From Sorangium cellulosum (lineage in GTDB: Bacteria; Myxococcota_A; Polyangia; Polyangiales; Polyangiaceae), in the NCBI GenBank assembly GCA_020720045.1, contig DYPH01000070.1, positions 1 through 32,450 on the forward strand: a DNA stretch of 32,450 nucleotides. Direction: 5' to 3'. Under the pieces are notes generated by a model. It worked only from the letters and a program-made list of their open reading frames with translations, ran no database searches and was not told the origin of the DNA. Below, piece after piece: positions 3,001-29,567 of the stretch (position 1 is its first letter; each line of letters begins with the position of its first letter). The position numbers and the translations under genes are program-made.

Positions 3001-3428
3001 GCGACGAGCGGCGCCGTCGTCGTGAGCTCCAACGCGAAGGGGCGGCCGGCGTCGAAGGCGATCTCGCGGAGGGCCCGCTGGCAGTAGCTGTGGATGGTGC
3101 CGATGGTCGCCGCATCGAAGGCGCGCAACGCCGCGTCAATACGGGTGTTTTCCTCGCTCGCCGCTTCTTTGGGAACGCCGCTCTGCACGCGCTCTTCGAG
3201 GAGCCGCCGGACGCGGACGCGGAGCTCTTTGGCCGCCTTCTCGGTGAAGGTGACGACGAGGATCCGTTCGAGGGGGATCCCCTTGTCGACGACGAGATCG
3301 AGGACGAGGTGCTCGAGGGTGTAGGTCTTCCCGGTGCCGGCGCTCGCCTCGATGACGGCGTGGTTCGCGGTGATCTTCTCGAGAATTTCTGGGCGCTTGT
3401 AGGCGCGAGCATAGGTGTCAGTGCTCAT
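1..3428 (-). CDS. recB: Exodeoxyribonuclease V beta subunit RecB (3' end beyond window)
   Basis: RecB is the 3'-5' helicase and nuclease subunit of RecBCD, which resects double-strand breaks and loads RecA. The visible 1142 residues show a UvrD-type Walker A motif (ASAGTGKT, residues about 26-33), a Walker B/motif II DEFQDTD at about 345, and the C-terminal RecB nuclease motif GSIDVVLEHAG...LIDWKTNR at about 1045-1066, followed by HYVYLRG. That is the order and length expected of RecB (about 1180 aa in E. coli), so only the last few dozen residues are missing at the left edge. The ATG at 3428 overlaps the recC stop (ATGA), which implies translational coupling. recD would be expected further downstream, outside the window. 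AddA is the alternative, but the partner gene reads as RecC rather than AddB. Long open frames on the opposite strand are shadows. Confidence 0.95.
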   Translation of the reverse strand, partial: MSTDTYARAYKRPEILEKITANHAVIEASAGTGKTYTLEHLVLDLVVDKGIPLERILVVTFTEKAAKELRVRVRRLLEERVQSGVPKEAASEENTRIDAALRAFDAATIGTIHSYCQRALREIAFDAGRPFALELTTTAPLVAQAFRELFRTTFASDPELKAPFADCGPLALAAELEGVRARGIPIAPTAEEIDAATLPEPAALRRAMTAAYTAGGRETKPTRDAVARAFEAFATSGVEAIDGWGELTKAQKSFFEKVDDLVFGGAVGRALPYLAAKSDPRFMALTRMLPPIAARVAAVKQEEGFVDFDDLIGLVAEALDPARGPAAASAAETLRARHDVALLDEFQDTDEKQWKIFETLFLRADKRLYLVGDPKQAIYRFRGGDLPTYLAAVARIEAMSGLAPIPLTVNFRSTAPLLEATNALLARDFFHGDNRYRHPVTAGRRERRLVDAAGNPLPPILVPTAEGPKKISSSAKRRKILAAVAEALRATVEHGFIDDERDPTQTRPLRWSDVFVLVASKSDGASVAKAFRRYGIPATRYKEEGLFQTAEAADLYDLLDSLAHPTDRNREIRAYQTLFFGCNADDLEALAALDEGHPLAELRSRLRALAGRGVAALVAELLAMTGARARLLLAEAGARRLVNLEHLLEVLAKEARSSDLEGAVRLLGTWVRGEASPPGGRDLVMRLSERGDAAQILTMHASKGLERPVVAIVSLGSKKPPTGPTTVYRSPTGRRQWIAKALPAAIEASVAKEEAEEAERVAYVALTRARHRTILPLWREEEAPAGEALKEIGKRYLPFAKPLLAAIADRVPGISVLAAQHAPPLRPVVPGAVPTAATPTEVPEVLVFPTPTAPRLDREAVLRACRPRKAHSFTSLASRTSAELLVESRGDVDDAPPEAEEVQAFMPPLTLEDLPTPEAPAEGAPARPVVTRAGARWGDFVHQVLEATLTSMPGVPGLPGVYGDLAAFQEAFAAPLLPLAVAAGYDADALAEALPLAYAGLTAPLRAEENLLFSLKEVDPARTLPELEFHYALAEQLGESRDHLLGSIDVVLEHAGKIHLIDWKTNRLDRYDAAALEANVAEHYALQVAVYTLAAARLFGLTDEATFAERFGGVHYVYLRGALEGARPFATASEIAASGVAR

Positions 3429-6400
3429 CCCGGAAACTCCTTGTCGCGGATCAAGGCGGCGTGGATGCCGAGGCGCTCGTCGAGCTCGCGGGCGAGGTCG
3501 TCCTCCTCGGGGACCGGCCAGTCGCGCCACCCGGGGACCGGCCCCTTGGCGGCGTAGGGGGGGAAACGGCCGCTGGTCTCCCGGTATTCTTCGAAGGCGC
3601 GGACGCTGCGGGCGCCGTTGACGAAGGCCTCCAGCGGGGCAAAACGGGGGCGAATCGGGGCGCTTGCGTGGCCGATGAGATCCTGGAGAAAGAGCTCGGC
3701 CTCGTAGAAATCCCACTCGGGGAGCTGCTGGGTGTCCCCCTTGGCGGTCAGGTCTTCGCCGAGGGCGAGGACGCGGACGGCGGTGACCGGCTCCTGGAAA
3801 CAGGTCATCAGGATCGCGCGGGCGACGACGAGCTCGGCGATCCGGAAGGCGCTGAGGTGCTTCACGATGTCGTCGGGGTTCTTGCGCGGGTGGCCGGGGA
3901 GGATGATCGCGCCGTCGATGACCGGCGGGAGCGCCCCCTGGAGGAGCCGTCCGCCGAAGGGCTGGGCCGGTCGGGCTTCGCGCCCATCGCGACCGCCGCG
4001 GCCGTCGCGATCGTCGCGACTCGCGCGACCAGGGCCCAGCTCAAAGAAGGTGATCGGCGCGCCATCTCCGCGAAAACGCTCGATGAGGGGGCCGAGTTCC
4101 GCCTCCGCCTTTTCGATGCGCGCGCTGGCGTAGGGGGCCGTCGGCAGGCGGGAGGCGACGCGATCGGCCTCCACGCGGGCGCGGAAGAGGGCGGTGGTGG
4201 CGGCGACGTCGCCAGGGCCGGCGAAGAGGGCCTCCACGACCAGGTTATCGAGGCGAAAGGCTTCGAATTCGAGGGGATCGCCGTCGCGGCCGTCGTCGTC
4301 GACCTCCTCCAACCGGAGGCGGAGGCGGGCGCGGGCCGCCCCTTGGACCGGGCAGCGGACGTAGGCGACGAGATCGGCGATGGCGAGCGGGGCGGCGGCG
4401 GCCCCTTCGCGGACGATCGGCGGAAATGACGGGAGATGCAGGAGTTTTTGCGCCGCCTCCCGGGCCGGTTCCAAGAGCGGGGCGTGGTGGAGGGCGAGCG
4501 GGAGGTCCTCCTCGGCGCTGCGGAGCACCTCGCCGAGGGCGCGGGCGTCGGCGCTGCGGATCGCCTCCGGGGAGAGGTCCTCCGGTTGGAGCTCCTGCCA
4601 GGCCGGCTCGAGGATCTCCCGGCGCGGTAGCTCGTCCGCCCGGAACCGCCCCTGGCGGTGAGGAACCGGCGAGCTCAGAGGGAGCTGGTCGTTGGAGTTG
4701 GCCAGCAGGGCGCGCTCGAAGGGGGCGAGGAGCGGCGACGGCGGGAGGGGATCGCCGCTGGTGGCGTCGGTCGCCGGCCAGGAGAGGGCGATCGCCGTCT
4801 CTACCGCACAGAAAAGCTCAAGAAAGGCGGCACGATCGCGGTCGTCGGTCAGGATGTCGCCGGGGCGGCGCTCGCCGCGGCGGAGATCGAGGGGGTCTTC
4901 GCTCGCCCGCTGGGGGAAGATCCCCTCGCCGAAGCCGACGAAGGCGACCGCCGCCAACGGAAGCCCCCGAAAGGCGGCGAGGGGGCCGCAAAGCACGCCG
5001 GGGGCGCCGGCGCGGGTCGTCGTCGGGATCGACGCGAGGGCCGCCTCGGCGAGGCGGAGGGCGTCGGCGTAGCGGTAGGTCGGCGCTGGCGCGGTCCCAA
5101 GATCCAAGCGGCGGAGCGTGGCGAGAGCGCTGAGGACCGTCGACGAGGCGCGCACGTCGAACTCGGTCTTTTCGAAGAAATACTTGCGGATCCAGGTGGA
5201 GAGCTCGTCGGCCCAGGTGGCGAGGGGCGCTTCGAGGGCGGCGAGGCGGTCGGCCTCGGTGAGCAGCTCGGAAATGCGGGCGAGCGCCGGGAGCGCCCCC
5301 GCGGGGATCGGGCGGAGGGGGCGGCGGTGCCCCTGGAGTGGAACGTCGCCGGCGGGGCGGAAGAGGGAGAGGGCGATGCGGTCGAAGCCCTGGTCGAAGG
5401 TGTGGAGGCTCGAATCGAGGTAGGTGCCGGCGAGATCCCGGGGGCGGTGGCCGAGGGCGATGCCGGCGTCGTCGAGGATTTTCGCGAGTTCTTCCGGGGT
5501 GGTGCCCCCTGCCCCTTCCCCAGCAGCGAAGGCAAAATCCAAGGCCGGCTCGCGGAGGAGGGCGACGACCGAGGCGGGGGTGCGCGCCTGCCGGGGGAAG
5601 GCGAGGAGGGCGGCGGCGCCGGCGATCCGTTGGGCGATCGCGTCGGCGTGGACGCCGTAGCCGCGGAGCGGGAGGCCGAGCTCGGCGAAGGCGCTCCGGA
5701 GGGCGGGAAGGTAGACCTCTTCGGCGCCGTCTCCGGAAGACGGCACGACAATCGCGAGTCGATCCAAGGGGATCTGGCGGTCGCGGGCCTGGGCGGTGAT
5801 CCAGGAGGCGGCGAGTTCGGCTTCGCGGGCCGGGGAGCCGGCGGCGAGGAGGACGAAGCTCTCGTCGGGCGTTTCGGCGGCGTCGGCTTCGCGGGCGGCG
5901 AGGCGCTGCTGAAGGCGGCCGAGGGTCGTCGGCGGGTAGGCGGTTTCTTCGCGAAAGGCGTCGATGAAGTCGCTGTCGACGGTCTCGTTCCAGAGGCGGA
6001 CCTGCTCGCGGAGGGGGCGGCCGAGGCGCACGAGGAGCTCGGGATCGCCGGCCTCTTCGAAGAGCGAAGAGCCGTACTCCTCGGTTTCCCCCGAGAAAAT
6101 CGGCATCCCCTCGTCGTCGAAGAGCACCTCGTCAGCGGCTGGGCCCGCCTCCGGCGTGTTCACACGCGCGCGCGCCGTCTTGAGGTCGTCCCAGAGCTCC
6201 CGGCACGGGTTGAAGGCAAAGACGACGGTCGGCCGGTGGCGGCCGAGGGCAGCGATGAGCTGACGCGTCGCCTCGGGGACGAGGCCGGGGGCATAGAAGA
6301 AGAGGGCCGGCGGGAGGGCGGCGAGGCCGGGATCGCGGTCGGAGCCGACCGGGAGGCTCCGGAGGCGCGCGGCGAGGGCGGCGACCGAGTGGTGGTGAGG

Positions 6401-7030
6401 GAGCCGCGAAAGGACGCGGGCGAGGAGCGGGACCTGCCAACGGCCCGGTCCGTTCGCGACGGCAGTCGCGAGAGAGGGCGGGCCGACTTCGAAACGGGCG
6501 GGGCCGTCGCCGGTGGCGAGGGCGGCGAGCGTGGCCGGCTGGAGGATCCAGTCGGGGCGGTTCTGGGCGTAGCCATCGAAGAGCGGCGCGAGGCGCCCGG
6601 CGAGCTCGATGCGGGCCCGCGCAGATGCGTTCGTGCGCGCCGTTTCCTCACCGCCTACGGCGGTTCCGGGCGGACGCGCACCGGCGACGTAGCGGGTGAC
6701 TGGTGCCGGGAGCCCGTCTTCGGCGAGGACGGCGAGGAGCCCCGCCTGAAAGGCGAGCCGATCGAGGCGAGCCGCCCGCGGTTCTCCGGGGAAAAACGCA
6801 GGAAAGAGCGGTTCGAGGAAGGCGTCGAAGGTCGGCGTGGCGACGTTGGCGACGATCCCGTTCTGGGCGGCGAGGGTGGCGAGCGCGTCTTCCCGGAGGG
6901 TGCTGTTCCCAAAGAGGAGCACCGGTCGGGCGAAAGGGTCGGTCGCCGCGCGAAAGGCCGCCAATTCCCCGGCGAGCGCGAGGAGCAGCTCCTGGGGACG
7001 ATTGCCAAAGACGACGCGAAGCCCGCTCAT
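3425..7030 (-). CDS. recC: Exodeoxyribonuclease V gamma subunit RecC
   Basis: RecC (1201 aa; E. coli 1122) recognises Chi and holds the DNA fork within RecBCD. The N-terminus has the RecC pattern (VVFGNRPQELLLALAGEL, then NGIVANVATPTFDAFL). There is no Walker A and no AddB-type Fe-S cysteine set, so it reads as RecC. The motif LAPLFDGYAQNRPDWIL at about 140-156 matches the conserved RecC 'LFDQYxxYRPDW' region. The C-terminal third has the inactive nuclease-like fold (ADLVAYVRCPVQGAARARLRLRLEE). The ATG at 7030 is chosen because conserved sequence starts there; open sequence further upstream has no RecC character and overlaps the next gene. The gene carries three extra segments in likely surface loops: two copies of a 47-nt palindromic element (4629-4675, 6634-6680) and an Arg/Asp/Gly simple repeat (3977-4030). 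These may account for its extra length. Confidence 0.93.
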   Translation of the reverse strand: MSGLRVVFGNRPQELLLALAGELAAFRAATDPFARPVLLFGNSTLREDALATLAAQNGIVANVATPTFDAFLEPLFPAFFPGEPRAARLDRLAFQAGLLAVLAEDGLPAPVTRYVAGARPPGTAVGGEETARTNASARARIELAGRLAPLFDGYAQNRPDWILQPATLAALATGDGPARFEVGPPSLATAVANGPGRWQVPLLARVLSRLPHHHSVAALAARLRSLPVGSDRDPGLAALPPALFFYAPGLVPEATRQLIAALGRHRPTVVFAFNPCRELWDDLKTARARVNTPEAGPAADEVLFDDEGMPIFSGETEEYGSSLFEEAGDPELLVRLGRPLREQVRLWNETVDSDFIDAFREETAYPPTTLGRLQQRLAAREADAAETPDESFVLLAAGSPAREAELAASWITAQARDRQIPLDRLAIVVPSSGDGAEEVYLPALRSAFAELGLPLRGYGVHADAIAQRIAGAAALLAFPRQARTPASVVALLREPALDFAFAAGEGAGGTTPEELAKILDDAGIALGHRPRDLAGTYLDSSLHTFDQGFDRIALSLFRPAGDVPLQGHRRPLRPIPAGALPALARISELLTEADRLAALEAPLATWADELSTWIRKYFFEKTEFDVRASSTVLSALATLRRLDLGTAPAPTYRYADALRLAEAALASIPTTTRAGAPGVLCGPLAAFRGLPLAAVAFVGFGEGIFPQRASEDPLDLRRGERRPGDILTDDRDRAAFLELFCAVETAIALSWPATDATSGDPLPPSPLLAPFERALLANSNDQLPLSSPVPHRQGRFRADELPRREILEPAWQELQPEDLSPEAIRSADARALGEVLRSAEEDLPLALHHAPLLEPAREAAQKLLHLPSFPPIVREGAAAAPLAIADLVAYVRCPVQGAARARLRLRLEEVDDDGRDGDPLEFEAFRLDNLVVEALFAGPGDVAATTALFRARVEADRVASRLPTAPYASARIEKAEAELGPLIERFRGDGAPITFFELGPGRASRDDRDGRGGRDGREARPAQPFGGRLLQGALPPVIDGAIILPGHPRKNPDDIVKHLSAFRIAELVVARAILMTCFQEPVTAVRVLALGEDLTAKGDTQQLPEWDFYEAELFLQDLIGHASAPIRPRFAPLEAFVNGARSVRAFEEYRETSGRFPPYAAKGPVPGWRDWPVPEEDDLARELDERLGIHAALIRDKEFPG
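3977..4030. repeat. GC-rich simple repeat/palindrome inside recC
   Basis: A run built from CGCGA, CGCGGC and TCGCGA words includes the perfect dyad TCGCGA-TCG-TCGCGA and the hairpin arms CGCGAC/GTCGCG around CCGCGG. Read in recC it encodes an Arg/Asp/Gly-rich stretch (RASRDDRDGRGGRDGRE) at about residues 1000-1018. It lies just before GGRLLQGALPP, the point where the nuclease-like C-terminal domain resumes recognisable RecC sequence, so it looks like a loop expansion. Confidence 0.6.
4629..4675 (+). repeat. Intragenic 47-nt palindromic element, copy 3
   Basis: This is a hairpin inside recC, in plus orientation (opposite to the copy at 6634-6680). Outer stem AGCTCG/CGAGCT, bulged T, CCG/CGG, internal loop CCCGGA/GAGGAAC, inner stem ACCGCC/GGCGGT, loop CCT. 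It matches the 6634-6680 copy at 39 of 47 positions. The outer-stem differences are two compensatory base-pair swaps, so pairing is kept. In recC it encodes SSPVPHRQGRFRADEL at about residues 785-801. Confidence 0.8.
6634..6680 (-). repeat. Intragenic 47-nt palindromic element, copy 1
   Basis: Read on the minus strand: outer stem TGCGCG/CGCGCA, bulged T, CCG/CGG, internal loop CCCGGA/GAGGAAA, inner stem ACCGCC/GGCGGT, loop GTA. Identity with the 12634-12680 copy continues 8 nt further (to 6626), giving 50 identical bases of 55. In recC it encodes ARPPGTAVGGEETARTNA at about residues 117-135, just before the conserved RIELAGRLAPLFDGY segment, consistent with an expanded surface loop. Confidence 0.85.
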
Positions 7031-7101
7031 GAGGCCCCGGAAGCTAGAACAATTAGAGCCCCTTCGGGGGGATGACCGGCGGGAACCGGTGCAAGCGGAT
7101 G

Positions 7102-7793
7102 TCAGATCGCGGGTGGGGCCCCGATGGTGCCAGACGTGGGACAGAACATCCCCTTGGTGCGGTCGGCGCTCACTGGGGCGTGGAACGTGAATTTCGTTCG
7201 GCAACCTGCGCAGTCGCCCCGCCCTTCCACCATGCTCGGCTTCATCCCGGCGACGTATTGAACGACGGTGTTGCGGTTCACCTTCGCCTCCGAGCAGGCG
7301 TATTCGACCGCTGTTTTCAGGTCGTTCACGGAAAGGTCGCGCAAGTCCTCGGACTTGACCCAACCAACGCTGACAGTGCCACGGAGCTCCTTCGCGTCGA
7401 TGCCTGTGGTCGACAGCGCGATCCCTGCCACCCGTCGGCGGATCTCTTCGAGACACGGCGTCGGCTCGGCCGCCGTCCACCCAAGCAGGAAGAACTCATC
7501 CCCGTGGGCGCGAAAGGGGGCCGCGTGTACCTCTTTGCTTGCCCCCTCGAGCACATCGGCGATCGCTTTCAGAAAGCTATCCGCCTGATCGTAGCCAAAA
7601 GCGTCATTGATGGCCTTAAAGCGGTCGACCTCGACAAACGCGAACCAAAAGGGAGCCTCGCCCTCGACCGCGTCGCATCGTTGCTCCCCAGCCCGGTGAG
7701 GCGATCGGTCATCCGTTCTGTGACGATGGCCTGTTCGACGTCGCTCTGAATCGCGCTGCGAAGGGCTTTCAGGGCCTCGTCGACCGCGCTCAC
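7102..7793 (-). pseudogene. GGDEF-domain protein, single-base frameshift near 7685
   Basis: The gene starts at GTG 7793, overlapping the upstream stop as GTGA. It reads MSAVDEAL... to TDRLTGLG, the start of a GGDEF (diguanylate cyclase) domain. It then loses frame near 7684-7689, beside a CCCC run. Restoring one base gives LTGLG(N)QRCDAVEG, followed in the other frame by FWFAFVEVDRFKAINDAFGY, FRAHGDEFFLLGW, GTVSVGW and AVEYACSEAKVNRNTVVQY, the usual order of GGDEF elements. The signature is HGDEF instead of GGDEF, and there is no RxxD I-site five residues upstream, so catalytic activity and product inhibition are both uncertain. The C-terminus adds a zinc-ribbon-like CAGC...FCPTSG stretch. 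It is either a recent pseudogene or a sequence error. The stop is 72 nt upstream of recC on the same strand. Confidence 0.75.
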
Positions 7794-8101
7794 GCAGCGA
7801 GCTCGCGCAGCACCGCTAGGAGTGCGTCGGAACCGTAGGGCTCCGTGGAGGGCGGGAGTTCGAGGCGCCGCGTTTGAAGAACGCCGCCCTTGGAAAACGT
7901 AACGTTCCAGACCGGTTTCTTTTGTTGGGTGCGCGCGAACGAGGTCGCCAACACCTTGATGCCCAGCGTTTCGCCACGCTCGGCGATGGCACGACGAAAC
8001 GCTTCGCGGGTGCGATCACTCGCGATGGAAATGCGGGCTGCTTCGACGAGGTTTCCCGCCACGAGGGCCTGATGAAAGCTGGTCGCCATGCGGAGGAGCA
8101 T
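7790..8101 (-). CDS. Hypothetical protein upstream of the GGDEF gene
   Basis: A protein of 103 aa (112 from a GTG at 8128, 99 from an ATG at 8089). It has no signal peptide or membrane segment. The N-terminal half is helical (SFHQALVAGNLVEAARISIASDRTREAFRRAIAERG) and the second half has beta-like stretches (PVWNVTFSKGGVLQTRRLELPP) before a helical end. I do not recognise the family. The stop overlaps the GTG start of the GGDEF gene by 4 nt, so the two were probably co-translated and may act together. None of the three start codons has a clear Shine-Dalgarno sequence, so the N-terminus is uncertain. Confidence 0.6.
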   Translation of the reverse strand: MLLRMATSFHQALVAGNLVEAARISIASDRTREAFRRAIAERGETLGIKVLATSFARTQQKKPVWNVTFSKGGVLQTRRLELPPSTEPYGSDALLAVLRELAA

Positions 8102-8345
8102 ACCACTGCGACGGGGCACTGCCACCACCGTCCGCGAAGCGGGGAAAGGCGCGGAGGTCTGGTGGGAGGAAAACGCCCTCGCTGGGTCCTAGGAAATTCA
8201 AGCCGCCTGCACTTTGCCCTTGCACGATGCAGCCCCTTCCGTAGCCTCCGCGCGCTCCGTTTGCGCAGCAAAGGGGGCGAAGAATGGTCCCCACAATGCC
8301 AGTACCGGGGGTGCTGGTGGGTCTTCGTTGAAGAAAGATGCTCTG

Positions 8346-9086
8346 ATGAATATTCGTACGTTGAGTGCAGCTCAAATGGTGCAACTGTCGGCTCCGTGGG
8401 TAGAGCCAGGCCCCGCGCGGACGGTGATTGAAGCGCAGCCGATGTTGGCCGCACTCCTTCCGACGGTGGAGGCGTGCCACGGGGCGCTGTACAAAACCCA
8501 GGTGATCAAGAACCCGACGGCGACCGCCGAGGCACTCCTTGCGGAGGGGGCGACCTGCGACGAACGCCACGACGGCGCAATCCGGGGGACGTTCGCGCTG
8601 CTCGGCGCGCTTTCCGATCTTACGGCGTCTACCGCGTACGCGGAGCTCCGCGATTTTCTGCTCCCGCGCGGCATGATGCACACGCGTCTTCGCTACGATG
8701 AAGAAGCCGGAGAAGCGGGCTTGCTTGCGGCACGCCTCGCCGCCGATCCGGCAAAGAAGAAGGCGCTGAAAGAGATCTCCGTCGGCCCCAAAACGCTATT
8801 GAGCGTCGTCGAAGGGTGGATCGCCGACGCCAAGCGCCTCGGCGAAATCGAGCGCGAAAAGGCGGCCCTCGCAACCACGGACAGCGGCCCAACCCCCAGC
8901 GAAGTCCGCGATCTCCGCAATCGCTGGGCGCGCGCCGTTCGAAGCCTTGAGGCGGTCGCGGAACTCGCCGACCTCGACGAGGCGACGACGGAGCTGCTCT
9001 TTGGCCGGCTCTACGCCGTCGCCAAAGCGAACCGCCCGCGCAAAGGGACGGCGCCGGTCGACGGAGCCGACGAAGGGGACGCCTGA
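8346..9086 (+). CDS. Hypothetical all-helical protein
   Basis: A protein of 246 aa predicted to be almost wholly alpha-helical, soluble and without a signal peptide. Leu/Ala heptad-like stretches run throughout (MLAALLPTVEACHGALYKTQ, TFALLGALSDL, WARAVRSLEAVAELADLDEATTELLFGRLYAVAK), ending in a basic/acidic tail. The ATG at 8346 is preceded by GAAGAAAG about 9 nt upstream, which supports this start over the longer open frame from 8214. I do not recognise the family. Its size, helical pattern and start near residue 1 resemble the unknown gene at 25399, but I cannot show homology by eye. It is divergent from the gene at 8101 and is followed by a strongly structured 3' region. Confidence 0.75.
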   Translation: MNIRTLSAAQMVQLSAPWVEPGPARTVIEAQPMLAALLPTVEACHGALYKTQVIKNPTATAEALLAEGATCDERHDGAIRGTFALLGALSDLTASTAYAELRDFLLPRGMMHTRLRYDEEAGEAGLLAARLAADPAKKKALKEISVGPKTLLSVVEGWIADAKRLGEIEREKAALATTDSGPTPSEVRDLRNRWARAVRSLEAVAELADLDEATTELLFGRLYAVAKANRPRKGTAPVDGADEGDA

Positions 9087-9116
9087 CGAGAGCGCTCAAG
9101 GTTCGCCGATCAGCAA

Positions 9117-9181
9117 GGGCCCGTCCGTCGGCGTCGACCAGCAATTTTGCTGGCAGCGGCGACGCCGGAGACGGCGGGCCC
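9117..9181 (+). other. 65-nt multi-stem hairpin downstream of the helical gene
   Basis: Four nested stems are visible: GGGCCCG/CGGGCCC (9117-9123 with 9175-9181), CCGTC/GACGG (9125-9129 with 9170-9174), GGCGTC/GACGCC (9130-9135 with 9161-9166) and CCAGCAA/TTGCTGG (9138-9144 with 9147-9153) around a TT loop. That is 25 base pairs in 65 nt, 30 nt after the stop codon. It could be a 3'-UTR structure, a processed RNA or a DNA-level palindrome. Confidence 0.65.
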
Positions 9182-9191
9182 ACTTCGACAG

Positions 9192-9221
9192 GCCCCGGTC
9201 TTCGGACGCGGGGCTTTTTTT
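9192..9221 (+). terminator. Rho-independent terminator
   Basis: Stem GCCCCG (9192-9197) pairs with CGGGGC (9209-9214) and is followed at once by seven T residues (9215-9221). It is placed to end transcription of the 8346-9086 gene. Confidence 0.8.
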
Positions 9222-9414
9222 CACCCAAGACGCTTCTACCCCCACGCTTTCGGTGAAATTTTTCACCCAAAACGCTCCTACCCCACGCTTTCGGTGAAAT
9301 TTTTCACCCAAAACGCTCCTACCCCACGCTTTCGGTGAAATTTTTCACCCAAAACGCTCCTACCCCACGCTTTCGGTGAAATTTTTCACCCAAAACGCTC
9401 CTACCCCACGCTTT
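9222..9414. repeat. Five tandem 41-bp repeats, each with a perfect palindrome
   Basis: Copies begin (at CACCC) at 9222, 9264, 9305, 9346 and 9387. The period is 41 bp (42 for the first). Copies 2-4 are identical, the first has a few changes, and the last stops before its palindrome and gives way to unrelated sequence. Each junction carries GGTGAAATTTTTCACC, a 7-bp perfect stem with a TT loop. There are no variable spacers, so it is not CRISPR. Confidence 0.9.
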
Positions 9415-9667
9415 CCGCGATCCGTGATCGCACCCAACCGCTTCCGACCACGGGTTTCTGCGATCCGCGCTTGCGACAACCGCTCGCCGGGGCGCTTCGA
9501 CGGCTTCCAGACGACCGGAGCCGACGGTCGCCCAGTTCGATGGGATCTTTCCCCGGCTGGTACAAAGGCCGCACCAGCAGGCCGACGGCGCCCTCCTCGT
9601 CTGGAAGACGGTCACCGTTGGCTAGATTCGAGACGACGAGATCGGGACGCTTTGATATCGGTTACGG

Positions 9668-10042
9668 ATGCGCTTTCCGCTCCTCTTCGCGGCCGTTACC
9701 GTTGCGTGGACCGCCTGCAGCGAGGCCTCAGACCCGGATCGTCCCGACGCCGCCGCGGATGCTGCCGTCGCGACCGACGCCGGGCAAGACGCTGGCGCCG
9801 ACGCCGGTTGTTACCCCTGCGGCGAGGTGCTCCAGACGATCGTGCCGCCGGCACCTTCGGCCTGGTGCCCGACGACGGCAGCGCTCGTCTCTGCGGCAAA
9901 CGCTTGCCTTTGCGACAAATGCGCCAGCGATTGCGGCGCAACATGCAGCAAGAACGAACGACCGACCGGCGCCTGCTTGACGTGCTTTTCGACGACGTGC
10001 GGGACCGCATACAACGCGTGCCTGGCCGATCGAGGGCGCTGA
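9668..10042 (+). CDS. Small Cys-rich exported protein, probable lipoprotein
   Basis: A protein of 124 aa. The N-terminus MRFPLLFAAVTVAWTAC is a short signal sequence ending in a lipobox-like TAC, although the -3 residue is Trp instead of Leu. A low-complexity Asp/Ala linker (DRPDAAADAAVATDAGQDAGADAG) follows, then a compact domain with twelve cysteines (CYPC, WC, CLCDKC, DC, TC, AC, CLTCFSTTC, C), probably disulphide-bonded outside the cytoplasm. Asp/Ala linkers followed by Cys-rich domains are typical of Polyangia cell-envelope proteins of unknown role. The first 250 bp upstream hold no other gene. It is convergent with the MFS-like gene, 40 bp away. Confidence 0.7.
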   Translation: MRFPLLFAAVTVAWTACSEASDPDRPDAAADAAVATDAGQDAGADAGCYPCGEVLQTIVPPAPSAWCPTTAALVSAANACLCDKCASDCGATCSKNERPTGACLTCFSTTCGTAYNACLADRGR

Positions 10043-10082
10043 GCGGGGCGCAACGGCGGTCCGTCGGAAGGCCGGAAGGTCT

Positions 10083-11279
10083 TCACGAGGTGAGGTCGAA
10101 GCCGGAGCGCTCCTCGGTGCCGTTCCCGCTCACGAAGTAGAAGACGGCGATCGCCGCCGCGCCGAGGGCGCAGACGCCCAGCGTAACGAAGGGCGGCAAC
10201 AGGCGAGTGACCAACGGCGCGAGGAAATTCATGACGGTACCGACGGCGACGAAGCTCGAAAGGGCGATCGTCCCCTGGGTGCGGCCGTGGCCGAAAGAGG
10301 CGAGCGTAAACAGGCAGATCGTCGTGAACTGGCTGGCGAGTTCGACCAACAGGAGCGCCCCCGGGAGGAAGTTCATCACGACGCTGGCGACCGCGCAGAC
10401 GGCGAGACCGATCCCGGCGAGGCGGAAGAGGCCGGTGCGGCGCCCCTGGAGGGAAAACAGCGTGCCGGCGACGAGGGCGAGGGCGGCGGCGCCGAAGTCG
10501 GTCCCGAGGATGCGGCTCCATGAATAGGCGAGGTGGAGTTCGCTGTTCGTGTAGCCGGCGACGTCGAGCAGCGAGAGGAGGCCGCTGCCGACCAGCGCCA
10601 AAAGGACGATCGGCGCGACCTTGCGATCGATGGGGGCCTCTTCCTCGGTCGCGGGGACGTCGTTGAGGGCGGGGCCGCGCGCAAGGAACGCAAGGACGCC
10701 AGCTACGAGGAGCGGCACAAGGGCGACCAGCGCCCCGACCGACGAGGCGTGTTCGCCAACCATCTCGCGGAGGGGCGCCGCGAGGGCGGGGGCGATCACG
10801 CCGCTCAGCGTCGCGAGGCCGAAGAGGCCGGCGGTGCCGACGAGGCGCTCACCGATGGAGGCGCGGCTAAGCCGTTCGCCGACGGCGGCGAGGAGCGCCG
10901 ACTGGAGTCCGCCATGGGCGACCGCCCCGAGCAACAGCGCCCCTTTTGCGAGGGAAGGCTCCGGAACGACGGCGAGCAGCGTGGTGAGCGCCATCCCGGC
11001 GAGCGCAAACAGGATCGCGCGCCGGGTACCGACCGCGAAGGCGACGACGCCGAGGAGCACGGCGCCGGCAATGCCCGCAAACCCGATAAACTGCCACATC
11101 TGGCGGCCGTCCTCGAGGGGGACGGCCCGGAGGAGGTACCAAGCCCCCTGGGCGAGGGCGAAGGCTGCAATGAGCAGCAGGTAGGGCACACCGAGGGGCG
11201 CCGAACGGGGGGCGACCGGCGCGGCGGGGCCCGGCATCCGGTAGGCGAGATCGAAGGGGTCGAGGCCGCGGCGGTCCAT
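10083..11279 (-). CDS. MFS-like polytopic membrane transporter
   Basis: A protein of 398 aa with about 11-12 hydrophobic segments spread over the whole length (for example LGVPYLLLIAAFALAQGAWYLL, ILFALAGMALTTLLAVV, LVALVPLLVAGVLAFL, VTLGVCALGAAAIAVFYFV). A hydrophilic loop after the sixth segment (RGPALNDVPATEEEAPIDRKV) is the usual two-bundle layout of a major facilitator. No substrate-specific motif is visible, so the cargo is unknown. The ATG at 11279 is chosen because it begins a short hydrophilic leader before the first membrane segment; longer frames extend into the neighbouring gene in another frame. It lies 41 bp downstream of the glycosidase-like gene and may be cotranscribed with it. 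Confidence 0.7.
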   Translation of the reverse strand: MDRRGLDPFDLAYRMPGPAAPVAPRSAPLGVPYLLLIAAFALAQGAWYLLRAVPLEDGRQMWQFIGFAGIAGAVLLGVVAFAVGTRRAILFALAGMALTTLLAVVPEPSLAKGALLLGAVAHGGLQSALLAAVGERLSRASIGERLVGTAGLFGLATLSGVIAPALAAPLREMVGEHASSVGALVALVPLLVAGVLAFLARGPALNDVPATEEEAPIDRKVAPIVLLALVGSGLLSLLDVAGYTNSELHLAYSWSRILGTDFGAAALALVAGTLFSLQGRRTGLFRLAGIGLAVCAVASVVMNFLPGALLLVELASQFTTICLFTLASFGHGRTQGTIALSSFVAVGTVMNFLAPLVTRLLPPFVTLGVCALGAAAIAVFYFVSGNGTEERSGFDLTS

Positions 11280-11320
11280 GGGGCGCGAAGCTACCGGGGG
11301 GCGCGCCGCGAAGCGACCGT

Positions 11321-12772
11321 TCAGCGGCGCGTCACGTAGAAAAAGTCTCGGTACCAGGAGCGCTCGACGTACTCGGTCGGCTTGTACTCGGCGGGGATGA
11401 GGCTGCTCTTCGCGTGGGGCGGGTCGGTCGGGCCGCCGTCGTGGCTGTAGAAGAGGAAGCGGGGGAAGGCCTGGTTGACGTCGAGCATGGCGATGTCGAC
11501 GGCGCCCGCGGCGGTGAGCGCTTCGGCGATGCTCTTGGCGCTCTGGGAGTCGCCAACACCATAGAAGAGCACCTTTTTCTCTTTGTCGAGGCCGATGGCG
11601 CTCCGCCGGATGACCGTCTCCCCGTCGACGGAGACCCCCCAGCCGGTCGCGGCGTCGGCGAGGCGCGCGGAGGCCTGCCCCTCCTCGGCGAGGCAACGGG
11701 GTGTCTGCCGGAAGCTTTTCATCTCCGCGCGGCGGGCGGCGAGCTTGCTCCAGGTGCCGATGGCGAAGGTGCCGTCCTTGAACATCACGAAGGTGCAGGA
11801 GGCGTCCTTCGGCGGGAGGATCTCGACGCCGTCGGCCATCATTCCAAAGTGGCCATGGACCGCCTGCCAGCCGCCGTTAAAGGCAGCGATCATGCGGGTA
11901 TAGTCGGCGGGGGGCACCTTGCCGGGGCGCTGGGCGCGCTTGACGGTTTCGCTCTCCGGCTCCGAGGTGCCGGCGACGGCGTCGACACGGACCCGAAGGG
12001 CATCGAGGGCGAGGACGGCAACGACCGAAAAGGGGCGCTTCGGATCGGGGTGGACGAGCGCCTTGGCAAAGACCGGTTTTTCCGGCGGATTTGCCGTGGT
12101 CACGGCGACGTCGTCGGCGACCGGGTACCAGGTCCCATCCTGGGCGGCGGCGACCTTCGGGTAGGGCGCGGCAAACGACGGCGGCGGGAAATAGCTGGGG
12201 ACCGCCGAGGCGGAAGCCGATGCCGAAGGGGTCGGCACCGGGGCGCCACCCCCGGTATTTCCTGGGGTTCCGGCGCCACCGGCCCCCTCGGGCGGCGGCG
12301 TCCAGTATTCGGTCGGTTTGTCTTCGCCGTGCCGGTAGGTCTCCCAGCGGTCCTTCCAGCCGTAGACGGCGTCTTCGACGGCGGCGATCGCCTTCGGCCC
12401 GAGGATCGCGCGGACGCCATCGACGGTCGCCGGGACGACGGCGGGGATCGTCAGCGCGGCGATCCCGTAGGCGGCGCCGATCGCGAAAAGCGCTCCAAAT
12501 ACCCGACGTTTCGTGAAGCGACGCTTCGGTGCCGCCGGACGCAAATCAAGCGGGCGAAGCGCCTCCGGCGGGGCGCTTTCGGGGCCACTCTGGGTCTCCG
12601 TCCTGCTCGCCGTTTCTTGAACAGTTGCATCCGTGCGCGCCGTTTTCTCACCGCCGGCGGCGGTTCCGGGCGGACGCGCAGCCGGCCGCAGCGGCTTCTC
12701 CGAAACGGGGAACCGGGGCGAGCTGTCGGGGACGGTGGCCGGGGCGTCCGACGGAGGGGCGAAGTCGTTCAT
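11321..12772 (-). CDS. Membrane-anchored phosphodiester glycosidase-like (NAGPA/DUF2233) protein
   Basis: A protein of 483 aa. An N-terminal Pro/Ala-rich cytoplasmic region (about 1-88) is followed by one membrane segment (FGALFAIGAAYGIAALTIPAV, about 91-112), a Pro/Gly/Ser linker and an extracytoplasmic domain from about 200. This domain carries the blocks typical of PF09992 proteins: MIAAFNGGWQAVHGHFGMM, a later GWGVSVDGETVIRRSAIGLD, and VDIAMLDVNQAFPRFLFY near the end. The mammalian family member removes N-acetylglucosamine from phosphodiesters; bacterial members are little studied and often envelope-linked, so the substrate here is unknown. The N-terminal region contains copy 2 of the 47-nt palindromic element (residues about 31-49), in a region likely to be disordered. 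Confidence 0.75.
   Translation of the reverse strand: MNDFAPPSDAPATVPDSSPRFPVSEKPLRPAARPPGTAAGGEKTARTDATVQETASRTETQSGPESAPPEALRPLDLRPAAPKRRFTKRRVFGALFAIGAAYGIAALTIPAVVPATVDGVRAILGPKAIAAVEDAVYGWKDRWETYRHGEDKPTEYWTPPPEGAGGAGTPGNTGGGAPVPTPSASASASAVPSYFPPPSFAAPYPKVAAAQDGTWYPVADDVAVTTANPPEKPVFAKALVHPDPKRPFSVVAVLALDALRVRVDAVAGTSEPESETVKRAQRPGKVPPADYTRMIAAFNGGWQAVHGHFGMMADGVEILPPKDASCTFVMFKDGTFAIGTWSKLAARRAEMKSFRQTPRCLAEEGQASARLADAATGWGVSVDGETVIRRSAIGLDKEKKVLFYGVGDSQSAKSIAEALTAAGAVDIAMLDVNQAFPRFLFYSHDGGPTDPPHAKSSLIPAEYKPTEYVERSWYRDFFYVTRR
12634..12680 (-). repeat. Intragenic 47-nt palindromic element, copy 2
   Basis: Same hairpin as in recC: TGCGCG/CGCGCA, CCG/CGG and ACCGCC/GGCGGT with loop GCC or similar. 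Identity with the recC copy at 6634-6680 continues to 12626 (50 of 55 bases). It is read in the same orientation and frame as that copy and encodes ARPPGTAAGGEKTARTDA. It lies in the disordered N-terminal region, upstream of the membrane segment. Confidence 0.85.
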
Positions 12773-16791: not shown

Positions 16792-17018
16792 AGTGCGCCC
16801 GTAGCGGGCGGCGACCCCGGCGAAAAGCCCGAACTCGCAGTGCCATCGGTCAAACAGGTGGGCTAGAGCACCCGTGGATCCTAGGAAGGCGTCGGCCCCC
16901 GCTCGGATTGCGCCCTTTTTCAAGGACGTAGCCCCGCGGCCGCCGAAACCAACCCCCGGATCTCCCACCGCCGCACCGCATCCCCGGCGCGGATGGCCCT
17001 TTGTCGAAGCGATCCACC

Positions 17019-19850
17019 ATGTTCTGGTCCTCCCTCCCCCATCTCGGAAGCGCCCTGATCCTCCTGATCATGGCCGCGGCCACGTACACGTTCGTCGTTT
17101 CACTCCGCGCGGGGACGACCGGCAGCGTACGGACCCTGCAAGCGGCCCGCACCGGCGCCTATGGCACGGTCACGCTCGTGGCGGTCACCGTGCTTGCGCT
17201 CGCGTATGCGTTCGTAAGTCACGATTTTCGCATCCGTTACGTGGCCCACTACTCGGACCGGAGCATGCCGCTCCCCTACCTCTTCACCGCCCTCTGGGGC
17301 GGCCAGGATGGGTCGATCCTCTGGTGGCTGTTCCTCCTGTCCCTCTACGTGGGGGCCTGCGTCAAATGGCTCGGGAAGAAGTACGTCGAGCTCCAGCCTT
17401 ACGTGATTGCCACGTTTATGGCGGTGTTCCTCTTCTTCACGATGTTGATGGCCTTCGCCGCGAATCCCTTCGGAACGGCGATTGGTGGTGCCAAAGTAGA
17501 CGGTGAGGGGCTGAACCCGCTCCTCCAGAATTTCTATATGATCATCCACCCGCCGAGCCTTTATACCGGCTTTGTCGGGTGCACGGTCCCCTTTGCGTTC
17601 GCCGTCGCGGCGCTCGTCACGGGCCGCCTCGACACCGAGTGGATCAAGGCGTCCCGCAAATGGATGCTCTTCGCCTGGATGTTCCTAAGCATCGGAAATG
17701 TGCTCGGAATGCTCTGGGCCTACGAAGAGCTCGGCTGGGGTGGCTATTGGGCCTGGGACCCGGTCGAGAACGCCGCCTTCATGCCCTGGCTGGTCGCCAC
17801 CGCCTACCTTCATTCGGTGATGATCCAGGAGCGCCGCGGCCTCTTCAAAGTCTGGAACTTCGCGCTCGTCACGTTCACCTTCTTCATGACGATCTTCGGG
17901 ACGTTCCTCACGCGTTCCGGGATGATCGCGAGCGTCCACTCCTTTGCTCAGTCGAGCATCGGTACCTATTTCGTCGGCGCGCTCGGCGTCATCTTCGTCG
18001 CGGCGCTGGCGCTCATTCTCTACCGGTGGCCCGAACTCCGCGGCTACCCGAAGGAGCCACGTGTCCGCAACGCCGCCCTCGGTGCCGGCCTTGTCGTGGT
18101 GCTCCTCCTCGGTCCCGGCATCTGGGCGCTCAGCTTTGTGCTCACCGGCAACAAGGTGCTCTATGCGCTCCCGATCGTGGCGGCGTTCGCCCTCTTCGCC
18201 GCCGTCGAGCTCGTCTTCCGTCGCATGAGCGGCGGCGCACGCCCCGCAGCGAACGAGCCACGCATCGAGTCGCTCGCCTCCCGCGAGTTCACCTTCGTGA
18301 TGAACAACTGGGCGCTATTGACGTTCCTCCTGTTCGTCCTCGCCGGCACGACCTGGCCCCTCTTTTCCGAGAAATTCCTTGGGGAAAAGGTCTCCGTCGG
18401 CCCCCCGATGTACAACCAACTGATCCAGCCGCTCGCGCTGATCATCTACATCCTGATGGGGGTCGGGACGCTCTTCGGCTGGAAAAAGACCAGCGCCGAC
18501 GCCTTCAAGAAAATGGCGGTCGCCCCCGTCGTGGCGGCCATCGTCGTCGCCGTGCTCCACGTCGCCTTGGGGGCCCGTTTCGGCTACGGCGCCTTCGTCT
18601 GGTCGCCGGCGGTATACCCGGGCGCTTTCGGCAGCTTTTTCCGCGCGTTGAACGCCGTTTCCCCCCTCCTCGGTACGACGGTAGCCGCCTTCAACGCCGC
18701 GATCGTGATTCAGGAATTCGTCATCCTGATCAAAGCGCGCATCAAGTCGGGTTCAAACACCACTCCGATGGCGCTCTTCTATGCGGGTGGCATTCTTGGC
18801 ATTGTCCACACGCTCTTCACGCTCCCGACGACCGGCCGTCGCCGCTACGGCGGCTACACGATCCATTTCGCGCTCGTCGTCATGCTCCTCGGTTTCACCG
18901 GTCAATCGTGGAACCGCTCGGAAGAAGCCTCCCTCGCGCCCGGTCAATCGATGGAAGTCGAGGACTATCGCCTCGAGTACCAGAAGCCGCGGATGGACGT
19001 CGACGCCGAAAAGCGCGCTGTTTCCGCGGAGGTGAACGTCTACAAGAAGGGGAAGTTCATCGGTTCCGTCGACCCAGCCAAGTACATCTACAAGAAGATG
19101 CCGGGCAATCCGACGACGGAAGTCCGGATGCTGCACTCGATCCGTGACGATCTCTACGTGATTGTCGGCAGCATCAACCCGCAGACGAAAGTCGCGGCGC
19201 TCCAAGTACATGTGAACCCGCTCGTGAGCTGGATCTGGCTCGGTTGCCTGATTCTGATGTTCGGTTCGGCGGTTTGTCTCTGGCCGGATCCGCGCACCGA
19301 CGAATCCCGCGTCTTCCGCTTTGCGCGCGGCATGGCAGCGACGGCGGCCGCCACCTTCTTCGGGATCCTCCTCGCGACGCTCCCGGTCAACGCCTACGCC
19401 CAGGGGAGCTCACTCCACTCGGGGACGGTGAAGATCGAAAACGACAAAGAACGCGAGATCTTTACCTCTCTCCGCTGCATGTGCGGGACCTGCGCTCGTG
19501 ACCTCCTCTCCACCTGCGCGTGTGGCACCGCCGAAGAGGCGCGTGCGCGCATCCGCTCGAAGATGGAAGCGGGCGAAACCAAAGACCAAATCGTCCTCGC
19601 GTACAAAGCCCAGTACGGCGTCGAGGCGCTCTCGGTGCCGCCAAACGAGGGGGCTCAGCGCGGCATTTACCTCGTGCCGGCGGTCACCGCCGTCGCCGCG
19701 ACGGTGGCGGTTGGCGTGATGCTCCGCCGCTGGAAGACGGCCCCGAAGCCGGAACCGGCGAAGGCGACGCCGACGGACAAAGCCGACACCGATCAGAGCG
19801 ACAAACTCGACGCCCGTCTCGATGACGAGCTCTCCAACCTCGACGAGTGA
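17019..19850 (+). CDS. CcmF-CcmH fusion, cytochrome c maturation heme lyase
   Basis: A protein of 943 aa. Residues 1 to about 780 are CcmF, with many membrane helices, GGQDGSILWW at about 91 and the WWD heme-handling motif WGGYWAWDPVENAAFMPWL at about 240-258, plus a large periplasmic loop near 640-730. A further membrane helix (AAATFFGILLATLPVNAYAQ) leads into a CcmH-like domain with EREIFTSLRCMCGTC at about 811-824 and a final membrane helix at about 881-903. CcmF joins heme to apocytochrome c; CcmH normally carries LRCxxC to reduce the apocytochrome thiols. Fusion puts both steps in one polypeptide. Here the motif is LRCMCGTC with four more cysteines nearby (ARDLLSTCAC), differing from the usual LRCxVCQ. 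ATG 17019 is favoured; a TTG at 17001 is possible. It is the first gene of a coupled three-gene operon. Confidence 0.9.
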   Translation: MFWSSLPHLGSALILLIMAAATYTFVVSLRAGTTGSVRTLQAARTGAYGTVTLVAVTVLALAYAFVSHDFRIRYVAHYSDRSMPLPYLFTALWGGQDGSILWWLFLLSLYVGACVKWLGKKYVELQPYVIATFMAVFLFFTMLMAFAANPFGTAIGGAKVDGEGLNPLLQNFYMIIHPPSLYTGFVGCTVPFAFAVAALVTGRLDTEWIKASRKWMLFAWMFLSIGNVLGMLWAYEELGWGGYWAWDPVENAAFMPWLVATAYLHSVMIQERRGLFKVWNFALVTFTFFMTIFGTFLTRSGMIASVHSFAQSSIGTYFVGALGVIFVAALALILYRWPELRGYPKEPRVRNAALGAGLVVVLLLGPGIWALSFVLTGNKVLYALPIVAAFALFAAVELVFRRMSGGARPAANEPRIESLASREFTFVMNNWALLTFLLFVLAGTTWPLFSEKFLGEKVSVGPPMYNQLIQPLALIIYILMGVGTLFGWKKTSADAFKKMAVAPVVAAIVVAVLHVALGARFGYGAFVWSPAVYPGAFGSFFRALNAVSPLLGTTVAAFNAAIVIQEFVILIKARIKSGSNTTPMALFYAGGILGIVHTLFTLPTTGRRRYGGYTIHFALVVMLLGFTGQSWNRSEEASLAPGQSMEVEDYRLEYQKPRMDVDAEKRAVSAEVNVYKKGKFIGSVDPAKYIYKKMPGNPTTEVRMLHSIRDDLYVIVGSINPQTKVAALQVHVNPLVSWIWLGCLILMFGSAVCLWPDPRTDESRVFRFARGMAATAAATFFGILLATLPVNAYAQGSSLHSGTVKIENDKEREIFTSLRCMCGTCARDLLSTCACGTAEEARARIRSKMEAGETKDQIVLAYKAQYGVEALSVPPNEGAQRGIYLVPAVTAVAATVAVGVMLRRWKTAPKPEPAKATPTDKADTDQSDKLDARLDDELSNLDE

Positions 19851-22224: not shown

Positions 22225-22286
22225 GCGCGCCGCTCGCCCGCGGTTCCCCCTTGCGGCCTGCGCGCGACTGGCGCGATCGTGGAGGG

Positions 22287-23480
22287 ATGCAGTCTTTCTC
22301 CTTCACGCAGGCCAACGGCGCTCCAAAAACCGTCCAAGGCTACCGCTATGCGCCACCTCGGGCCGGATCACGGCGCTTCGTAGCGGCCACTCCGCGGACG
22401 CCCCGCCAGGTCGACCTGCGCCCTTTCCTCACGCCCGTCGAGGATCAATCTGCGACCAATAGTTGCGCGGCGAACGCCGTCGCAGGGGCCGTTGAGTATC
22501 TGATCAAGCGAGCCCATGGCGATGAGGGCTACGACGTAAGTCGTTTGTTTATCTACTACAATGGGCGCGCAGCAGACGGGGAAGAGATCGAAGATGAAGG
22601 CTGCGTCCTCCAGTCGGCGATCGCCGGACTGGAAGAATCCGGAGCCTGCTCGGAGGAGACCTGGCCCTTTGACGAGGAGAACGTCAACGAGCCTCCGGAC
22701 GACGATGCCTTCGCGGAGGCCGAGAGCTTTTCTATCGAGGGTGCCGAACAAGTTCCAACAAACTTGAACGCTTGGCGTGCGGCCCTCGCCGACGGTCATC
22801 CGATCATTTTTGGGTTGAAGCTCTTCGGATCGTTCGACAAGCACCGAAAACCGGGCCTCGTACCGATGCCTACGTCGAGCGACCTCGGCCGGGAAGGTCA
22901 CGGCGGTCACGCCATGCTTTGCGTCGGATACTCGGACGTCGACGAGGTATTTATCGTTCGGAATTCTTGGGGCGAAGAGTGGGGTGATCGGGGGTATTGT
23001 TACCTCCCCTATCGCTACGTGATGAATCCCGACTATAACTTCGATGATTCCTGGATCATCCGGAGCGTCGACGTCACCGAACCCGACGAGTCGACCTGGT
23101 CCGACGACGAGGAGTCGCTCCTCACGGCGATCGGCGACGCGGTTGCCGGCCTCGACGAAGAGGGGCACGCGGCGTTGCTTGAACGCCTCGGGGAAGTGCC
23201 TGTGGACGTCCGTGTCGGCCTCCTCTTCCTGGCCGCCGCAGGGGCCGACGGCGCGCTCGAAGACGACGAAATCGCCGAGGGGGCGAGCCAGCTCGCCGAG
23301 ATCCTCACCGCCAGGACGCCTTGCGCAAACTGCGGGTGGTCGACCCGGCCTGCGGCTCGGGCGCCTTCCTCGTCGCCGCCTTTGATGCGCTCGCCCAGGA
23401 GTTTGAACAGGTCAACCGCACCCTCGCCGAACTTCAGGGGGGGAGCTTCAGCCTCTTCGATCTCACGAAGACCGTGCTGA
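22287..23480 (+). CDS. Papain-like (C1A) cysteine peptidase, C-terminus disrupted
   Basis: A protein of 397 aa as read. No signal peptide. The papain-fold catalytic elements are all present: Gln and Cys in DQSATNSCAANAVAGAVEYL (about 52-72), His in GHGGHAMLCVGYSD (about 208) and Asn in VRNSWGEEWGDRGY (about 228). After the peptidase comes an acidic linker and a helical TerB-like segment (DVRVGLLFLAAAGADGALEDDEIAEGASQLAEILTA, about 307-342). From about 23310 the frame runs, out of register, through a methyltransferase gene, giving an Arg/Ser-rich tail with no real homology. The native C-terminus is therefore missing. GGAGGG abuts the ATG too closely for a good ribosome site. Codon use is more AT-rich than in the ccm operon, suggesting separate ancestry. 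Confidence 0.8.
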   Translation: MQSFSFTQANGAPKTVQGYRYAPPRAGSRRFVAATPRTPRQVDLRPFLTPVEDQSATNSCAANAVAGAVEYLIKRAHGDEGYDVSRLFIYYNGRAADGEEIEDEGCVLQSAIAGLEESGACSEETWPFDEENVNEPPDDDAFAEAESFSIEGAEQVPTNLNAWRAALADGHPIIFGLKLFGSFDKHRKPGLVPMPTSSDLGREGHGGHAMLCVGYSDVDEVFIVRNSWGEEWGDRGYCYLPYRYVMNPDYNFDDSWIIRSVDVTEPDESTWSDDEESLLTAIGDAVAGLDEEGHAALLERLGEVPVDVRVGLLFLAAAGADGALEDDEIAEGASQLAEILTARTPCANCGWSTRPAARAPSSSPPLMRSPRSLNRSTAPSPNFRGGASASSISRRPC

Positions 23481-28826: not shown

Positions 28827-29567
28827 ATGGATCGCGAAATGATGCGTCTGCAGAGCACTCCGCGCCCTCTCCCGCTTCGTGGAGGGACGCTTCTCGCCCC
28901 GTCGATTCTCAGCGCCGATTTTGCCCGCCTCGGCGAGGAGGTGGCGGCGCTGGAAGCGGCAGGCGCCGATTGGATCCACGTCGACGTGATGGACGGGCGC
29001 TTCGTCCCGAACCTGACCTTCGGCCCCCCGGTGGTAAAGGCGCTCCGGAAGGTCACGAAATTGCCGCTCGATGTGCATTTGATGATCGTCGAGCCCGACC
29101 GCTGGATCGACGCCTACGCCGATGCCGGCGCCGATAGCATCACCGTCCACGCGGAGGCCTGCACCCACCTTTCGCGGGTCCTCCAGGCGATTCGTGCCCG
29201 CGGAAAACGGGCCGGCGTCGCCCTCAATCCGCACACGCCCGAGCACGTGCTTGAGTACGTGATGCAGGGCCTCGATCTCGTCCTCGTGATGAGCGTCAAT
29301 CCCGGTTTCGGCGGCCAGAGCTTCCTCGGAAGTGTGCTCCCGAAGGTCCGAAAGATTCGTGAAATGGCCGCTGCCCACGGCGTGCAGATCGACCTCGAAA
29401 TCGACGGCGGCATCGCCCCGGAGACAATCGGTGCCGCCGCTGAAGCGGGGGTGGGGGTGTTCGTCGCTGGAAACGCGGTCTTTTCCGGCGCCCCCCCAAG
29501 CGGTCAAGCCGACCACTACCGGAGCCGCATCGAGGAGCTCCGTGGCCTCGCGGAGGCGAAGCGATGA
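28827..29567 (+). CDS. rpe: Ribulose-phosphate 3-epimerase
   Basis: Interconverts ribulose-5-phosphate and xylulose-5-phosphate in the pentose phosphate and Calvin pathways. TIM-barrel motifs are all present: [15 protein letters not shown] (substrate Ser), [19 protein letters not shown] (metal His and catalytic Asp), LPLDVHLMI (metal His), [12 protein letters not shown] (phosphate-binding) and IDLEIDGGI (second catalytic Asp). At 246 aa it is about 25 residues longer than typical Rpe because of an N-terminal extension; ATGs at 28839 and 28842 would shorten it by 4-5 residues only. Its stop overlaps the next ATG (ATGA). No Calvin-cycle genes are nearby, so a housekeeping role is likely. Confidence 0.95.

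Follow-up and report, generated by a model that had tools for sequence, protein, structure and literature searches.

The 32,450-nt stretch of DNA analysed here (contig DYPH01000070.1, positions 1 to 32,450; referred to as the window) includes three copies of an imperfect hairpin of 47 nt that, together with a 10-nt tail, makes up a unit of 57 nt. In our reading the unit is a palindromic mobile element of the non-autonomous type that resembles the REP sequences and the Rickettsia palindromic elements (RPEs) and has multiplied in a single genus of uncultured Myxococcota. We assign this reading a probability of about 0.77, which covers the mobility of the element, and the participation of a Y1 transposase is graded separately below. 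With it a second clear bacterial lineage, remote from Rickettsia, would be known whose functional genes admit mobile palindromes and stay open, the gene concerned here being the core repair gene recC. The existence of two sister species, of filled and empty sites, and of several families of repeats makes both the movement of hairpins and their tolerance by proteins testable.

The pattern TCCGCCCGGAACCGCCNNNGGCGGTGAGGAANCGG is found at 4635-4669(+), 6640-6674(-), and 12640-12674(-) with 0, 0, and 1 mismatches respectively, and no match was obtained in 100 dinucleotide shuffles. An original prediction, made from the letters of the window only, had placed three copies of the palindrome at these sites and strands, and its description of the stems holds as well: when folded as single-stranded DNA the copies form a 6-bp outer, a 3-bp middle, and a 6-bp inner stem (z ~ -2.4 to -3.1), with an asymmetric internal loop in the predicted fold of each. 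The 47 nt proposed for the element is the length of the hairpin; the mobile unit, as defined by empty sites and array spacing, is 57 nt. As had also been noticed, two outer-stem pairs are altered on both sides in one copy: pair 1-47 is T-A in copies 2 and 3 and A-T in copy 1, and pair 4-44 changes from G-C to T-A. These compensatory changes belong to a real genome-wide pattern. Two-sided pair changes amount to 43 cells over 86 distinct cores, compared to a mean of 17.8 and a maximum of 29 in 1000 shuffles, which ignore relatedness and so leave uncertain how many events were independent. Most compensatory cells are supplied by pair 4-44 (43 G-C, 31 T-A, and 7 G-A).

The host genome is a metagenome-assembled genome (MAG) of 6.34 Mb in 357 contigs. 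The genome-wide search for more copies that accompanied the original prediction as a suggestion returned 196 matches to the left half and 211 to the right half of the element (at most 2 mismatches), i.e., about 200 copies, and the reversed patterns used as a control gave 5 and 0 matches, respectively. In a sister MAG from this genus there are 75 matches (at most 1 mismatch), and 37 other relatives have 0 to 4 each. A search of 84,980 species genomes for the exact core found it only in JAAFHJ01, 'Myxococcales bacterium bin76', which is presumably that same sister species; the Rickettsia genomes in this set had none. The viral contigs searched had no match either, and a viral origin was rejected on this basis. 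Half-elements were considered as the ends of a larger transposon and rejected because the sequences adjacent to them differ between loci. Genomic contexts were drawn from 1.29 Mb of host stretches, partly selected for holding copies, which include 128 full copies at 96 loci with the consensus GCAGC-TGC(G/T)CGTCCGCCCGGAACCGCCGAAGGCGGTGAGGAAACGGCG(C/A)GCA-CGGATGCAGC-TGC.

Empty sites do exist in related genomes, as the sister species shows. Filled and empty versions differ by a net 57 nt at L123/L073, L077/L206, L091/L207, and L062/L209, and at the other three sites by 55 nt (L081/L204), 54 nt (L096/L205), and 63 nt (L059/L208), the latter being 57 nt and a TGCGCA restart. In the majority of empty sites a pre-existing (C/T/G)AG(C/G) precedes the insertion point. 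The empty sites agree with insertion 3' of a short target and no long target duplication, with short locus-specific matches between flank and tail persisting. Other orthologous copies occupy the identical position in both MAGs, which argues against assembly artefacts, and many copies are not common to the two species.

The 57-nt element, which we call family A, is accompanied by three more palindromes confined to the same genus: family B (45 nt, AACGCGTCCGTCCGCGAAGCGGGAGACGGCGCGG..., 242 matches in the host and 91 in the sister), family C (75 nt, GGGCCCGTCCG...GAGACGGCGGGCCC, 141 and 110 matches), and family D (39 nt, GTCTCCGCCCGGCGAGACGCCGGATCGGAGA, 131 and 66 matches). Two motifs, CGTCCG towards one end and GA(G/A)ACGGCG towards the opposite one, are common to families A, B, and C. 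Families C and D insert at the short palindromes GGGCCC and ACGCGT, respectively, which are identical in sequence to the ends of the inserted element. The tandem periods of A, B, C, and D (57, 45, 75, and 39) are all multiples of three, which in four families is suggestive only. In the stretches compared, the two species differ by 44 indels of 25-400 bp, 28 of which carry family A, B, or C; the sample is enriched for repeat loci, and some of its rows represent one event seen in overlapping loci.

For its movement the likeliest candidate, to which we give somewhat less than even odds, is transposition of the folded single strand by a Y1 (HUH, RAYT-like) transposase. The transposase of Y1/RAYT type that had been proposed to be sought elsewhere in the genome is present: a 314-aa query has 12 matches in the host and 14 in the sister MAG, most of them more than 60% identical and some of them fragments. 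In the other genera of the family Y1 matches are absent or distant (~30-36% identical). Two of the Y1 proteins are encoded at L031 1408-2352 and L032 1351-2328. The Y1 proteins match the NCBIfam model REP_Tyr_transpos (5.5e-9, 1.7e-10) below its curated cut-off, and the HIH and IAYxxxNPVxAGLV motifs can be read in their sequences. Their genes constitute a multi-copy unit of their own, with the conserved left end CCCCCTGGCCCGGGCCAGGC and the right-end hairpin AAATCTAGCTGTCAGCTAGATTT, and among the relatives searched amplification at high identity was found only in this genus. Several results weigh against the Y1 step. No copy of the 57-nt element lies closer than 1.5 kb to any of 22 Y1 genes, where ~5 are expected by density; the end hairpins of the Y1 units differ from the element; the element was searched for the unpaired GTAG that tags RAYT substrates, and none was found; no orientation bias with GC skew (lagging strand) was detected; the co-occurrence of Y1 genes and element at the genus level is a single evolutionary event; and the left flank agrees in its final 4-5 nt with the tail of its own locus (z 3.3-5.5), which also fits a short target duplication. 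A REPtron arrangement was rejected for the 57-nt family for lack of neighbouring copies. Families B and D have a higher density near Y1 genes (D, 0.219 vs 0.049 per kb of background; B, 0.119 vs 0.046), and a family D palindrome is located ~15-90 nt from one end of the Y1 gene at L040, L240, L241, L242, L250, and L251, which could be a REPtron-like link. Since B and D are enriched near Y1 genes and the 57-nt family is not found there, a direct Y1 link to the latter is missing. A broader proposal, a superfamily of at least four hairpins (57, 45, 75, and 39 nt) with gene-compatible lengths selected as multiples of three, variable outer arms acting as target guides (GCAGCTGC, ACGCGT, GGGCCC), and one Y1 mover, is speculative and in our opinion improbable as a whole.

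Copies are also organized in head-to-tail arrays, with a unit spacing of 57 nt in 26 of 32. The units of one array are nearly identical, and the 10-nt spacer is constant within an array and differs between loci; a CRISPR array was rejected because these spacers repeat within each array rather than being unique. Array copy number differs between orthologues (2 vs 4, 3 vs 1). The right end, GCAG(C/G), resembles the target, so a new copy may insert beside an old one at that end, which would explain the arrays. They could alternatively grow or shrink by recombination or slippage. Taken further, the whole family could have spread with no transposase, via slippage of replication induced by the hairpin, template switching, or gene conversion at sites of microhomology, a possibility that we regard as unlikely, with perhaps one chance in four. 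It would be in keeping with the change in array copy number between species and the near identity of units, with the short matches between left flank and tail, and with the insertion at L077/L206, which is located at a related family B element. It does not fit well with the more than 90 loci across which copies are scattered in the 1.29 Mb, their constant 57-nt boundary, and the target preference already present in the empty sites.

Slightly less likely than slippage is that the unit is a miniature inverted-repeat transposable element moved by another enzyme, either a DDE transposase with a short target duplication or a site-specific recombinase of IS607, IS110, or tyrosine type acting via a circle. 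The agreement between left flank and tail, locus by locus, is what speaks for it, together with the insertion of the related families at palindromes equal to their own ends. Nevertheless, the terminal inverted repeat is just the 6 nt of the hairpin foot, the duplication at the L123/L073 empty site is imperfect (GTAGC vs GTAAC), and these ends were not seen on any larger element.

The original prediction took the element to be intragenic, and this does not describe its setting, as most copies in the genome are intergenic. A classifier of codon usage, trained on the DNA to which it was applied, places 17 of 77 loci (~22%) inside an open frame that continues on both sides, compared to 60% of random positions, which indicates that genes are avoided, not excluded; in the sister genome the figure is 5 of 33 loci. 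A same-strand frameshift was called at 12 more loci, some of which may reflect damage to the gene or an error of the classifier. Copies are found on both strands, some antisense to genes and some within coding sequence. Since 57 is divisible by three and the consensus has no stop in five of the six frames, an insertion is tolerable as a 19-residue peptide. Of two open frames, ARPPGTAxGGEETARTDA is used in 13 of 15 sense intragenic copies (one-sided binomial ~0.004), as would follow from the survival of tolerable peptides only. A location within genes had also been proposed as a distinction from REPs; it is none, as REP-like repeats inserted in recBCD and other repair genes of other bacteria have been described (PMC3733652). 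A function of the hairpin as an RNA or DNA structure under selection, be it a terminator, an mRNA stabiliser, or a nucleoid site, has a low probability. It would account for the stem covariation and for the small number of copies in divergent-gene intervals (12 of 85, fewer than the 79 of 243 expected), but there is no Rfam match, copies occur in both orientations, including antisense and intra-coding ones, other genera have no element, and many copies are not shared even with the sister species. No known RNA family gave a credible match, the sole one being CRISPR-DR29 with 22.8 bits, below the cut-off of 39. Ordinary protein sequence or homology, already dismissed in the original prediction, was rejected with near certainty: several copies have one translated frame in common, but the ~200 copies are mostly outside genes, on both strands, and have empty sites in the sister species.

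Two of the window copies are in recC, as predicted, copy 1 antisense and copy 2 sense. The start of recC is probably near 7027, because the RecC match begins near residue 154. The comparison of recC with and without the segment favours an insertion: the RecC homologue in genome G004 reads YLAGDRQGARRIELAARLADVFDQY where the host protein reads YVAGA-RPPGTAVGGEETARTNASARA-RIELAGRLAPLFDGY, and since RecC homologues do not have the copy 2 segment, this insert represents an addition in a loop. Copy 1 is within a poorly conserved stretch of RecC. As judged from the sequence, recC would include two tolerable 57-nt inserts translated in frame as peptides. A palindrome at 6443-6501, absent from the original prediction, is a third palindrome-derived insert in this gene. 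The recC region was sought in the sister MAG and not found, and the recC sites were compared with distant homologues only. Copy 3 is inside an open reading frame (ORF), as had been stated, although the glycosidase-like label given to this gene could not be confirmed by any Pfam or NCBIfam match. It is located in the 5' part, within a low-complexity segment that precedes a hydrophobic stretch, and the remnant that follows it suggests a decayed tandem array. The features are collected in Table 1.

Table 1. Palindromic elements and their host reading frames in the window, and Y1 units at other loci.
Feature	Position	Strand	Sequence or peptide	Evidence and remarks
recC ORF	3425..7480	-		TIGR01450 4e-48; PF04257 1.5e-27; 1w36 chain C; hosts copies 1 and 2 and a family C copy
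Copy 1, 47-nt hairpin	4629..4675	+	arms AGCTCG...CGAGCT	Antisense within recC ORF; pattern match, fold
Copy 1, 10-nt tail	4676..4685	+	CAGAGGGAGC	Hairpin and tail form the 57-nt unit; sequence, length from empty sites
Degenerate family C palindrome in recC	6443..6501	+	GGCCCGGTCCGTTCGCGA...TCGCGAGAGAGGGCGGGCC; peptide EVGPPSLATAVANGPGR	RecC homologues shorter here
Copy 2, 10-nt tail	6624..6633	-	CGAACGCATC	Followed by TGCGCG, start of a further unit
Copy 2, 47-nt hairpin	6634..6680	-	peptide ARPPGTAVGGEETART	Sense within recC ORF
Family C element, 75-nt class	9117..9191	+	GGGCCCGTCCG...CGGCGGGCCC and tail; exact GAGACGGCGGGCCCACTTCGACA	Sequence match
ORF hosting copy 3	11321..12772	-		No Pfam or NCBIfam match
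Remnant of second unit after copy 3	12604..12623	-	TGTTC AAGAAACGGCGAGCA	Read from sequence
Copy 3, 10-nt tail	12624..12633	-	CGGATGCAAC	Sequence
Copy 3, 47-nt hairpin	12634..12680	-	peptide ARPPGTAAGGEKTART	Sense; frame as copy 2
Family B-like element, 45-nt class	28863..28889	-		3 mismatches
Y1 unit copies	L039 2540-3481, L040 4624-5571, L054 3988-4947, L186 7703-8638, others			

REPs and RPEs are a known kind of repeat, and the repeats described here are new and REP/RPE-like; a literature search found no description of them. The resemblance to both that had been noted originally stands in that this is a comparable mobile palindrome, and the defining REP tags are absent. Like RPEs, taken by description and with the likeness resting on organization rather than on a comparison of sequences, the element is palindromic, limited to a genus, represented by several families, and inserted between and within genes, including in frame in conserved proteins (PMC2229807, PMC10969869); the palindromic repeat appears in frame inside unrelated conserved genes, namely recC and other ORFs, as read from translated sequences. 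Classical RPEs are 105-150 bp long, whereas the units found here are of 39-75 nt, GC-rich, arranged in head-to-tail arrays, and hosted by Myxococcota. The REP/REPIN-RAYT (TnpA-REP) systems also consist of short imperfect hairpins in high copy number that are partly intragenic, with recBCD among the reported sites (PMC3733652), and the present genome too encodes RAYT-like Y1 proteins. The 196-211 matches correspond to a high-copy, short, dispersed palindrome such as the GTAG REPs. The element differs in having a 10-nt 3' tail, in being head-to-tail where REPINs are head-to-head, and in having no unpaired 5' foot GTAG/GTGG: positions -5 to -1 are GCAGC, outside the unit, with GTAGC in a minority. 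A cognate RAYT flanked by the repeat is likewise missing, as none of the 22 Y1 genes has a copy within 1.5 kb. CGTC-tagged REPs, including RPE-4 and RPE-6, are similar in having CGTC near the 5' end, intragenic copies, and no dedicated transposase known. These have 8-9 bp stems, loops of 4-5 nt, and a CCA tail, and are mostly head-to-head dimers (PMC3733652). In the 57-nt element the outer stem includes the CG of CGTC as paired bases, and the fold of the element shows neither the unpaired terminal CGTC nor the stem, loop, and tail of that class. Since the defining GTAG and CGTC features tested, namely unpaired tags, stems, and a flanking RAYT gene, are lacking, the element can be considered RPE/REP-like in its working and a member of neither group. 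Palindromes derived from IS200/IS605 share with it the imperfect hairpin, an apparent insertion 3' of a short target, and the target-like right end; in this case, however, no autonomous element with these ends was found, and the Y1 units end in other hairpins.

The window includes other features of interest. There is a tandem array with a 41-nt repeat at 9217-9415 (4.8 copies, 98% matches, TTTTTCACCCAAAACGCTCCTACCCCACGCTTTCGGTGAAA), which contains a TTTCACC/GGTGAAA palindrome. An Eco57I/MmeI-type DNA methyltransferase is encoded at 23321-25285(+) (PF07669, 3.3e-38) beside a papain-family protease ORF at 22251-23480, and the CcmF and CcmH cytochrome c biogenesis domains are found in a single ORF of 949 amino acids at 17001-19850(+).

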